A DNA stretch of 44,467 bases from the NCBI GenBank assembly GCA_018821305.1, contig JAHJMN010000056.1:1-44467 (forward strand). Direction: 5' to 3'. Position 1 is the stretch's first letter. Each line of letters begins with the position of its first letter. The DNA is from Myxococcota bacterium. GTDB lineage: Bacteria; Myxococcota_A; Polyangia; HGW-17. Below, piece after piece: positions 2,963 through 43,838 of the stretch. The notes below the pieces were generated by a model. The model searched no databases. It saw only the letters and a program-made list of their open reading frames with translations, and was not told the DNA's origin. The position numbers were made by a program, and so were the translations under genes.

Positions 2963-3131
2963 TTTCGATTCGTTGCCTGTTGCCAACGCGGAGGTGCACC
3001 GAATTCAGGTTTGAGGACGTTTGGGATGATGATCCATTGATTAAAATAATATTCTTTTTATTATTGTTTTATGATTCTGCTGAGGGATGCGTCCATTATC
3101 GAAAACTTTCCATGTTCTGTGGAGTATGAAA

Positions 3132-3611
3132 ATGTCCAGTGATGCGGAAGCCTATCTCCTTGCCGTGGATTTGGGGCTGAAAACGGGCCTCGCGCTCTTT
3201 GACAATCGTGGGACTCTTTTATGGTACCGTTCTCACAATGTGGGCAGCAGGGCAAATCTGAAACGGGCAGTCCATACCATTTTGCGCCAACTCACTTCAT
3301 TAAAATATATTTACGTTGAAGGCGATCGGGCCCTGGGGGAAATCTGGAAAAAAGAAGGTACAAAAGTCGGTGCGACTCTGACTTTTGTAAGTCCCGAAAC
3401 GTGGCGGGAAGTCTTCATGTATGAAAGACAAATGGAAGACAGTAAAACCGCAAAAGAAACAGCAGTAAAAATGGCCACAAGAGCTGTAGCACTTTTATCT
3501 CCGAATAAATCCCCAATCCCGCTTCGGCACGACACAGCGGAAGCCATTTTACTCGGAGTATACGCCATCTACAAAGAAGGATGGCTCGAAACCATCCCGG
3601 ATTTCGGGTAG
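3132..3611 (+). CDS. RuvC-like RNase H-fold nuclease, compact
   Basis: The protein has 159 residues when started at the ATG at 3132, which has GGAG at 3121-3124 placed 7 nt upstream. The in-frame ATG at 3126 is too close to that site. The fold resembles RuvC-type resolvases: a first strand LAVDLGLKTGLALFD with D13, a second acidic residue in YVEGD (E63), and a C-terminal helix RHDTAEAILLG with D134 and E137. E. coli RuvC uses D7, E66, D138 and D141, so the arrangement is conserved with a final Asp-to-Glu change. It may resolve branched DNA or be a related nuclease. It stands alone, with no ruvA or ruvB nearby. Family assignment is from motif reading only. Confidence 0.7.
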   Translation: MSSDAEAYLLAVDLGLKTGLALFDNRGTLLWYRSHNVGSRANLKRAVHTILRQLTSLKYIYVEGDRALGEIWKKEGTKVGATLTFVSPETWREVFMYERQMEDSKTAKETAVKMATRAVALLSPNKSPIPLRHDTAEAILLGVYAIYKEGWLETIPDFG

Positions 3612-3620
3612 TTCGCTCCC

Positions 3621-3850
3621 GAGTAATACGATTGTGACTCGGTTTAAAGAAATGCTTCAGGAATGAGCCCCCTGATTTCCTGTTCCTGCTTCTGATTTCC
3701 TGATTACCTGAAATTTTTAACAGGTAGACAGGCAGTCAGGAAACAGGGGCAGGATCAGGTCGTAACCATTTAACATCAAAGTAAAATTACAAAAATGGAA
3801 TAAAATATTCACTTTTTAGATTTCGATCCTTTTACTCCGCAAGCGGTCTA
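3621..3850 (+). repeat. CCTG/CAGG long-hairpin repeat, copy 1
   Basis: A head (3621-3670) leads into a long imperfect hairpin. The left arm, 3671-3710, repeats CCTG about every 7-10 bases. The loop is an A/T-rich run (3711-3720). The right arm, 3721-3759, repeats CAGG. A tail at 3761-3850 contains AACATCAAAGTAAAATTAC, TTTCGATCCTTTTACTC and GCAAGCGGTCTA. Copies at 9682-9900 and 43575-43760 share the hairpin design and tail. It sits between the convergent RuvC-like and tetratricopeptide-like genes, so it may also act as a transcription terminator. Confidence 0.78.
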
Positions 3851-8846: not shown

Positions 8847-9683
8847 ATGATAAAGAAATCCTTCCTTCAGACGGGAAAGTTGCGAACGGCTCATCTTTCG
8901 GGAGGTTCGGGAGATCCAATCCTGTTTATCCACTCTATTCCCGGTACATCTTTTTTGTGGATGGATCATCTTGAGGCATTTGCCTCCACATTTTTCTGTT
9001 TTGCACCGGATATCTACGGATGCGGTGATACAACGGGGCCTTCGGATTCCGAGTATGATCTGGAGACCCTGAGCGATTCAATCTACCGCTACAGTACAAC
9101 ACTGGGAATTTCTTCAACTCATGTTGTTGCCCATGGAAACGGCGCCGCTGCGGCACTTATACTTGCCCTGCAAAAGCCCGGTTTTTTAAAATCACTGATA
9201 CTCATTAATCCCATGTTTGGATCCAATATCCCCGGAAAATTAAACCGGACTTTGATGATTCTGGCCAAACGACAGAGTTTATGGGATGCGGGATTTCATA
9301 CAGGGCTTATTCCGGGAATGATTCGACTCCACACAAAAGCACCGCATCAGCGGGAAAAATCAAGAGTTTATACAGGGGAAATACTGAGACCTTTTGAAAA
9401 TTCCACCGCAGCAAGAGCCAGGTTCCAGAAAGTTCTTAAGGATTTCAACCCCAAGTTGACGAAAACCCTCTGCCCTCACCTTCATCGGATCCAAGTACCT
9501 GTGGGCCTTGTAACGGGAAGCGAAGACCACGTATGTACGCCGGACTGGCTACTGGATTTTTCAAAGCTTTTCAATTCTCCGAAATGGGAAGTCATCAACG
9601 GCGGCAGCCATTTCCTGCCCCTCGAAGCCCCAGCTCAACTCACCGACTTCATAAATTCAGTTATAAATCAGACAGCTTCCTGA
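8847..9683 (+). CDS. Alpha/beta-hydrolase fold protein lacking the nucleophile serine
   Basis: The protein has 278 residues with a clear alpha/beta-hydrolase layout: strand and oxyanion region ILFIHSIPGTSFLW, then DIYGCGDT, a cap region at about 125-205, an acid-turn candidate D227 in VTGSEDHVCTP, and a histidine H255 in GGSHFLPLE. The nucleophile elbow reads VVAHGNGAAA (93-102), with Gly97 where Ser, Asp or Cys is expected; the codons CAT GGA AAC GGC are unambiguous. The other two triad positions are kept. It may be a non-catalytic or cofactor-independent variant, or use another residue. It is the last gene of the pyrE operon. A weak ribosome site suggests coupling to the preceding gene. Confidence 0.85.
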   Translation: MIKKSFLQTGKLRTAHLSGGSGDPILFIHSIPGTSFLWMDHLEAFASTFFCFAPDIYGCGDTTGPSDSEYDLETLSDSIYRYSTTLGISSTHVVAHGNGAAAALILALQKPGFLKSLILINPMFGSNIPGKLNRTLMILAKRQSLWDAGFHTGLIPGMIRLHTKAPHQREKSRVYTGEILRPFENSTAARARFQKVLKDFNPKLTKTLCPHLHRIQVPVGLVTGSEDHVCTPDWLLDFSKLFNSPKWEVINGGSHFLPLEAPAQLTDFINSVINQTAS

Positions 9684-9900
9684 GTAAAAGGATAGTGACT
9701 TAATTAAAAGAAATAATTCAGGAAATAGACCCTGATTTCCCTGTTTCGGTTACTGATTCCCTGTGTTCCTGAAATTTTTATCAGATAATCAGGAAGTCAG
9801 GATAACAGGGTCAGGATCAGGGCGTAACCACCCAATATCAATAACAATTAAAAAGAACGTAATTTTTAATTCAATTTCCCAATTTCGATCCTTTTATTCT
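9682..9900 (+). repeat. CCTG/CAGG long-hairpin repeat, copy 2
   Basis: The head starts at the stop codon of the hydrolase gene and aligns with copy 1 (GAGTAA, AAAGAAAT, TTCAGGAA). Hairpin arms lie at about 9730-9770 and 9782-9822 around an AAATTTTTAT loop. The tail has CCAATATCA and TTTCGATCCTTTTATTC. The arms differ from copy 1 in many places yet keep the CCTG/CAGG periodicity. It lies between two convergent genes. Confidence 0.78.
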
Positions 9901-19666: not shown

Positions 19667-19768
19667 TTTCTGTTCCTTTTAAAAATCCGTTTTCGTCTTA
19701 ACAGGATTGTATCCGTATATTTATTTGCCTTATCATGTTGTTATTACAACTATAAATGCAATCAAGTA

Positions 19769-19911
19769 GTTCGTGTCCTGTAATTCGCATCGCGAAGGAT
19801 TTTATTAAAAATCCTAACAGGCCACTACTCGTAAATTCAACACCTTGCGGTTACTGTCCTGAGTAAAAAATCGACAAAAAATTTGAAAAACCGTATTTCA
19901 GGACAGTAACT
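19769..19911 (-). repeat. Full three-module interspersed repeat (reverse orientation)
   Basis: Three parts are joined. A cruciform-like module (19769-19825) has outer CCTGT/ACAGG ends enclosing two hairpins, TTCGC-ATC-GCGAA and an AGGATTTT stem. A linker (19826-19849) carries the complement of GCAAGGTGTTG. A hairpin module has perfect 13-bp termini GTTACTGTCCTGA (19850-19862) and TCAGGACAGTAAC (19898-19910). The copy at 44246-44379 has the same parts in the opposite orientation. It lies in the 405-bp gap between pgi and the porin gene, which otherwise shows no gene. Confidence 0.78.
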
Positions 19912-42777: not shown

Positions 42778-43512
42778 ATGGAAAAAAAAGAACGAATCAA
42801 TAAATTCATAGCGCGATGCGGAGTTGCTTCCCGTCGCAAAGCTGACGAACTCATTAAAGAAGGCAGAGTTAAAATCGGCAACACAGTAGTTACGGAACTT
42901 GGCACAATGGTTGATCCCCGGTCGGATAAAGTTCGCGTTGACGGAACTCGCATTTCACCACCGGAAGACTACGTTGTCATTGCCTTGAACAAACCCGCCA
43001 ATGTACTTTCAACGGTTTCCGACCCTGAGGGACGAGCCACTGTACTGGAACTCCTTCCCGATCTTCAATTTCGCATTTATCCCGTTGGCAGGCTGGATTG
43101 GGCCAGCGAAGGACTCATACTACTGACAAATGACGGCGAGCTTACGCAGGCACTTACACACCCCAATCATGACGTTAGTAAGATTTATGAAGTGAAAATA
43201 AAAGGACACGTGGTTGAATCCACCCTGAAACGCATCCGTGAAGGTGTCGATCTTCCGGATGGAAAAACCAGGCCCGCCCGCGTGGAAATTGTCAAAGTAC
43301 TTCAAAAAAATACGTGGCTTCGCATCACGGTCCAGGAAGGCCGAAACCACCTGGTTCGTAAGATTTTCGAGCATTTCGGTCATGATGTTATCCGCCTTGT
43401 GCGAACTCAGATTGGAAGCATCAAACTGGGAACCCTGCAGGAAGGGAAATACCGCTATCTGAATAAACCCGATATAGCAAAACTGAAACGTGAAGCCGGC
43501 CTGACCTCCTGA
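42778..43512 (+). CDS. rluB: RluB/RsuA-family pseudouridine synthase
   Basis: The protein has 244 residues with an N-terminal S4 domain (RINKFIARCGVASRRKADELI) and the catalytic stretch GRLDWASEGLILLTNDG. The C-terminal QEGRNHLVRKIFEHFGHDVIRLVRTQIG matches the RluB/RluE/RsuA group, and the gene order behind scpB is the usual place for rluB. It should modify 23S rRNA. The gene starts 74 bp after scpB. A CCTG/CAGG repeat follows and probably ends the transcript. Confidence 0.93.
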   Translation: MEKKERINKFIARCGVASRRKADELIKEGRVKIGNTVVTELGTMVDPRSDKVRVDGTRISPPEDYVVIALNKPANVLSTVSDPEGRATVLELLPDLQFRIYPVGRLDWASEGLILLTNDGELTQALTHPNHDVSKIYEVKIKGHVVESTLKRIREGVDLPDGKTRPARVEIVKVLQKNTWLRITVQEGRNHLVRKIFEHFGHDVIRLVRTQIGSIKLGTLQEGKYRYLNKPDIAKLKREAGLTS

Positions 43513-43574: not shown

Positions 43575-43760
43575 ATCCTGTTTCCCTGAATTCCTGTTTA
43601 CTGTCTACCTGAATACCTGAAATTTTAAACAGGGACTCAGGTAGTCAGGCAAACAGTGTCAGGTTCAGGGCTTAACCATTCAATATCAATGTAAAATTAC
43701 AAATGCTGAAAGAAGATATTCACTGTTCTACTCTCGATCCTTTTATTCCACAAGCGGTCT
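43575..43760 (+). repeat. CCTG/CAGG long-hairpin repeat, copy 3
   Basis: The hairpin has left arm 43575-43619 with CCTG every 7-10 bases, an A/T-rich loop, and right arm 43630-43670 with CAGG. The tail TCAATATCAATGTAAAATTAC, CTCGATCCTTTTATTC and CAAGCGGTCTAATA (43678-43762) is close to that of copy 1. The head differs from copies 1 and 2. A short GGGCACGAA end of the other repeat family follows at 43802-43810. The whole gap between rluB and the tRNAs holds only repeats and a promoter. Confidence 0.78.
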
Positions 43761-43838
43761 AATATTCCACCCTACTTTCCATATTTCGACCTTTTTACTC
43801 AGGGCACGAACCATTTTTCAAATCCTTATAATTTTTCC

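Follow-up and report, generated by a model that had tools for sequence, protein, structure and literature searches.

The pneumococcal RUP, a MITE related to IS630-Spn1, has IS630-like ends, a TA target, more than 100 copies, an intergenic location and a habit of forming clusters and nests; convergent gaps hold more of its copies than expected (23 convergent, P 3.4e-7; PMC3049150). Correia/NEMIS elements of Neisseria are likewise MITEs, with 24-26-bp TIRs, 5'-TA ends and target duplication; they come in size classes that either have or lack an internal block, and their transcripts form long hairpins (PMC2229807). BOX of Streptococcus pneumoniae has a variable number of internal modules, and in 36 cases the adjacent gene takes its stop codon from the element (PMC3049150). 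REP/BIME sequences are palindromic, extragenic, present in high copy number and located 3' of genes.

A hairpin repeat present in three copies in the window (the whole 44,467-nucleotide stretch of DNA analysed here, which encodes proteins of gram-negative bacteria, LamB and GGDEF among them, and so is not of archaeal origin, as from Methanosarcina) resembles each of these systems in the features just listed. It appears closest to RUP, a likeness of description rather than of compared sequences. RUP nevertheless is a firmicute element of 107 bp with a 9 bp TIR, whereas the present repeat measures about 240 bp, has TIRs of about 21 bp and contains a hairpin built from CCTG/CAGG arrays. For Correia elements, cleavage of the transcripts by RNase III at the TIRs and promoters in some of the copies are described in addition (PMC10969869). 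BOX differs in its modular boxA/B/C structure and in being linked to ISSpn2 rather than IS630, and the passages of PMC3049150 that treat its stop codons do not describe regeneration of a stop from TA plus G. REP/BIME units are far shorter (REPs are 20-40 bp), are tagged with GTAG or CGTC and are associated with RAYT (PMC2817692, PMC3733652). Convergent bias and the use of stop codons are already known for pneumococcal repeats (PMC3049150). The original prediction that the repeat belongs to no named family holds for its sequence, as an Rfam search of the window at gathering score returned two tRNAs only and no match to the repeat, but not for its kind, given that RUP, Correia/NEMIS and BOX behave alike (PMC2229807, PMC3049150). 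The repeat forms a new family within a familiar class of genomic parasites and is not a new RNA element; more specifically, it is very probably a non-autonomous MITE of the IS630/Tc1-mariner type.

Copies in the window and their boundaries

All three repeats of the predicted design are present where they were first placed, although the unit proved larger than had been proposed, being bounded by TIRs that extend copy 1 to 242 bp. The parts are as follows.

3609..3850, plus strand: copy 1, 242 bp with the TA of each end counted in, nearly complete; its left end is the TIR consensus minus one base and its right TIR is exact
3609..3628, plus strand: left TIR of copy 1, whose counterpart in the parent lies on the transposase-3' side; inner sequence ACGATTGTGA
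3671..3710, plus strand: CCTG arm of the internal hairpin of copy 1
3721..3759, plus strand: CAGG arm of the internal hairpin of copy 1
3830..3850, minus strand: right TIR of copy 1, transposase-5' side, inner sequence GGATCGAAA, read on the minus strand as TAGACCGCTTGCGGAGTAAAA
9669..9900, plus strand: copy 2, with a right TIR that is degenerate in its outer part
9669..9689, plus strand: left TIR of copy 2 (CAGACAGCTTCCTGAGTAAAA)
9731..9821, plus strand: internal CCTG/CAGG hairpin of copy 2
43577..43761, plus strand: copy 3, lacking the left third and left TIR, 65 bp past the pseudouridine-synthase ORF 42778-43512
43577..43668, plus strand: internal CCTG/CAGG hairpin of copy 3
43741..43761, minus strand: right TIR of copy 3 (TAGACCGCTTGTGGAATAAAA)

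The outer right end of copy 2 is thus gone, as is the left third of copy 3. Two of the copies supply the stop codon of the preceding gene. In the case of copy 1, the first three bases of the left TIR are the TAG of ORF 3087-3611, while the left TIR of copy 2 provides, 12 bases in, the TGA (9681-9683) that ends the alpha/beta hydrolase ORF 8847-9683. An additional degenerate TIR-like end (TTTCGACCTTTTTACTCAGG) lies at 43785-43810, right after copy 3 and upstream of a tRNA-Arg gene.

Family size, target sites and the parent element

The conserved tail TCGATCCTTTTA occurs in 229 exact copies in the 5.22-Mb genome (113 forward and 116 reverse), against none for a reversed-pattern control. Copy 1, used as the query of a DNA search, gave at least 48 matches among the 40 of 594 candidates that were scored; together these counts indicate a large family. 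Two separate samples of genome stretches, of 1.59 Mb and 1.06 Mb, were used for further analysis. In the former, 48 copies have both TIRs located. Alignment of copies with their flanks shows that complete members are about 240 bp and are bounded by TIRs of about 21 bp with the consensus TAGACCGCTTnnnGARTAAWA. The two ends differ on the inside, one running on as GGATCGAAA and the other as ACGATTGTGA. Size classes of about 99-104, 220-247 and 270-292 bp can be distinguished, none with a transposase gene. Some of the longer copies, for example C123:68831, C30:37 and C17:3307, have a recurrent palindromic insert or hairpin of about 35 bp (GCATTCCGCTGCGCGAAATTGC or GCATTTTTGCAAAGCAAAAATTGC) in their left arm.

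Over 215 ends the outer boundary is sharp, with TA at 80%/93%, a pyrimidine (Y) at -1 in 82% and W at -2 in 83%, such that the bases flanking the ends fit W-Y|TA|R-W. Some copies are arranged head to tail or nested, with one TA common to both. A second repeat of higher copy number, about 120 bp or more in length and found in dozens of copies in 1.59 Mb, serves as an insertion target; it is represented in the window at 19767-19886 and elsewhere at, for example, C16:18623-18744 and C67:13187-13307. Two copies of the MITE, C29:31972-32216 and C166:30412-30651, occupy the same TA of this independent repeat. When their flanks are joined with a single TA, they match uninterrupted copies of the target repeat over 122 bp at 98% and 117 bp at 97%. 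Since the rejoined flanks correspond to unoccupied copies, they constitute evidence from empty sites for insertion with duplication of the TA.

Among 13 genomes of the order, TIR ends with up to two mismatches number 317 in the source genome and five in its sole congener, the sister species G004, and are absent from the other 11. A scan of named genomes with the exact pattern gave no matches, the source genome itself possibly lying outside the set scanned. In G004, contig C27 carries the TIR TAGACCGCTTCATGAGTAATAAGGATCGAAA, of the GGATCGAAA type, and then, about 80 bp from the end, MKILSLDLRMRIVESYESGKTRTYKET, where an IS630-like protein begins. On C5 of the same genome, a transposase C-terminus is followed by a CCTG array and then by the other type of TIR, and on C8 both TIRs surround the 3' end of the transposase, a deletion derivative. 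The source genome has two transposase pieces at contig ends, one of them (relic C10) bounded by a TIR; joined across the contig overlap, they match PF13358 (DDE_3) at 3e-32. An intact autonomous element is found in neither genome, the transposase being split at contig ends by the assembly or decayed. The assignment to IS630-type MITEs follows from these ends held in common with the IS630 transposase of the sister species and from the DDE_3 match of the joined pieces. The family therefore combines TIRs, TA duplication with a preference for YTAR/CTAG, short size, ends shared with IS630 and a DDE_3 transposase. Of the roles first proposed for the repeat, that of a mobile element is the one borne out, by the TIRs, the TA duplications, the empty sites and the sister-species transposase with the same ends.

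The MITE very probably derives by deletion from an IS630-like insertion sequence and would be moved in trans by the DDE transposase of that parent, which would cut at the TAGACCGCTT... ends and insert at YTAR targets, best at CTAG, with duplication of the TA. Mobilisation of a REP/BIME-like palindrome family by a RAYT (a Y1 tyrosine transposase) would also account for a high-copy, extragenic, palindromic repeat located 3' of genes. It has next to no likelihood here, as the unit is about 240 bp, ends in TAGACCGCTT, has long TIRs and TA duplications, and bears ends that sit on a DDE_3 transposase element; the TA empty sites contradict it as well.

A gene for a four-helix-bundle protein of the 23S_rRNA_IVP family (PF05635, 1.5e-16) lies antisense after a transposase fragment and has a CCTG array and a TIR next to it, with sites at L021 (C56:25509-25736) and L147 (C78:3713-4009). 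An intact copy elsewhere has a CAGG array but no TIR nearby. This gene is possibly a passenger or a separate cassette; a literature search pairing IS630 with the four-helix protein returned nothing useful.

The internal hairpin

Inverted CCTG and CAGG arms occur in all three window copies. When both strands of these copies were compared with dinucleotide shuffles, z-scores ranged from -3.4 to -7.2; for 42 genomic copies the mean folding z was -4.9, with 98% below -2. The proposal that the rhythm stays while the linkers drift agrees with a consensus of 93% at CCTG/CAGG columns, as compared with 80% in the linkers and loop and 83% in the rest of the element. The rhythm is that of a degenerate octamer repeat, CCTGNNNN, whose unit number differs between copies of the MITE and which also forms linear arrays without it. 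Thirteen runs of at least four units lie outside MITE matches in 1.59 Mb. Arrays of this octamer are uncommon in the sister species, and the other genera of the family have none.

Three points favor a functional RNA element at the 3' end of transcripts, a stabiliser or bidirectional terminator that transposition spreads and host selection retains behind genes: hairpins that are very stable on both strands, the conservation of CCTG/CAGG above the linkers and, in two window copies, a weak hairpin of terminator type formed by the minus strand. This reading is unlikely. The main hairpin has no T-tract after it, terminator-like matches in the element are near the shuffle expectation, and compensatory changes between the arms of a copy were not seen. 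For the 42 copies, pairing of a copy's own arms averaged -41.5 kcal/mol, as against -41.1 kcal/mol when the partner arm came from another copy (permutation z -0.8), and pairing of own arms did not differ from that with the arms of the nearest relatives (p 0.39 and 0.59). As own arms pair no better than foreign arms, their complementarity rests on common units and not on coevolving arms.

The same data bear on the notion of a non-mobile slipping minisatellite, the arms of which would have grown site by site through replication slippage or template switching. The linear CCTGNNNN arrays and the variable number of units among copies speak for it. Slippage can account for changes within the arms but not for dispersal, however, and template switching should have left coevolving arms within each copy. 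The entire 240-bp body and the TIRs, rather than the arms alone, are common to the copies, and the TA insertion sites are clean. We regard this explanation as highly improbable.

As part of an IS630-type MITE, the internal hairpin may be understood as a pair of inverted CCTGNNNN arrays. The transposase-3' end of the parent bears a CCTG-type array in G004, and the hairpin could have been inherited from this sub-terminal array after a deletion or inversion placed two arrays opposite each other.

Outside the MITE, linear CCTGNNNN arrays reach 14 units; they include L021:1390-1494, C67:49369-49471 and C61:68922-68981, as well as L134:3000-3400 in the sister species. In both species an array of this kind follows a Cys-rich protein gene, the two genes being similar. 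At L021:1327-1390, a nine-base tandem array of the GTGGACNNN type is located after the stop of a Cys-rich gene and directly before the CCTG array. Another repeat starts with TAGACCCAATGCTGATCGG and has the CAGG units first, then the loop and then CCTG (L055:17806-17861, L057:17785-17839 and L043:8883-8936). Some of its sequence is also present upstream of the gene for the four-helix protein, and it is therefore probably a second derivative family.

Position relative to genes and stop codons

Placement was scored against our own hexamer-based ORF calls rather than curated annotation (1218 genes, 87% coding), with expected counts taken from free intergenic length; matches near sample edges (12 and 39) were left unclassified. 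The 1.59-Mb sample has 61 copies between convergent genes (13.6 expected), 48 in tandem gaps, five between divergent genes (31.6 expected) and none inside genes, and the 1.06-Mb sample has 33 (9.8 expected), 41, two (23.5 expected) and none, respectively. Pooled, 94 copies are convergent where about 23 are expected and seven divergent where about 55 are expected, with none in genes. The bias persists within gap-length classes, and a copy is held by 39% of convergent gaps as compared with 6% of tandem gaps. The predicted position 3' of genes thus holds genome-wide.

At 62 ends (33 and 29 in the two samples), the first three bases of the element coincide exactly with a gene's stop codon. TAG accounts for 52 of these 62 junction stops, as compared with 20% of all stops, since the target TA and the first G of the element regenerate a stop. 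Insertion into TAG would restore TAG, and insertion into TAA would give TAG. The transposase-5' end faces the upstream gene at 42 of the 59 stop-codon junctions that could be typed, a modest bias that is carried by the 42:17 count itself, the baseline of a Fisher test being inflated by chance matches to a loose pattern; it may reflect a preference at insertion, selection, or a difference in how readily the two ends are detected. In tandem gaps, 34 copies run in the direction of the gene and 55 against it (p 0.03 pooled), with 16:32 (p 0.03) in one sample and 18:23 (p 0.53) in the other, which alone does not repeat the bias. The shared orientation of the three window copies, which had been put forward as a property of the repeat, is accordingly due to chance.

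Enrichment in convergent gaps beyond the effect of gap length and the end bias at stop junctions both favor the 3'-end RNA element, while the mixed orientation counts against it, as does the absence of the MITE from most of the order. The same convergent bias is reported for RUP, BOX and insertion sequences in PMC3049150, whose authors take it as a sign of parasitism. The stabiliser envisaged in the original prediction finds no support, arm covariation being absent and the commoner gene-relative orientation being opposite to that in the window. A related possibility, which we consider quite doubtful, is that the host has recruited the MITE as a portable gene-end module that inserts at stops, restores TAG and, through its minus strand, which is entered at the transposase-5' end, ends or protects the transcript. 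If so, the ending or protection of transcripts would lead to the heavy occupancy of convergent gaps. The positive evidence for such a recruited role, to which we likewise give little credence, consists of position and the modest end bias. For a selfish MITE, on the other hand, position would be set by the target site and by purging: the 3'-of-gene location could result from the removal of insertions in genes and promoters, together with tolerance at stop codons.

A suggestive pattern at gene ends is in this way resolved as a high-copy family of IS630-type MITEs in an uncultured deltaproteobacterial lineage. That a TA-targeting element beginning with G restores TAG in stop codons shows why elements of this type look bound to gene ends. 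The end bias at stop codons, if upheld by RNA-seq, would offer a natural way of testing whether the hairpins of MITEs turn into gene ends.
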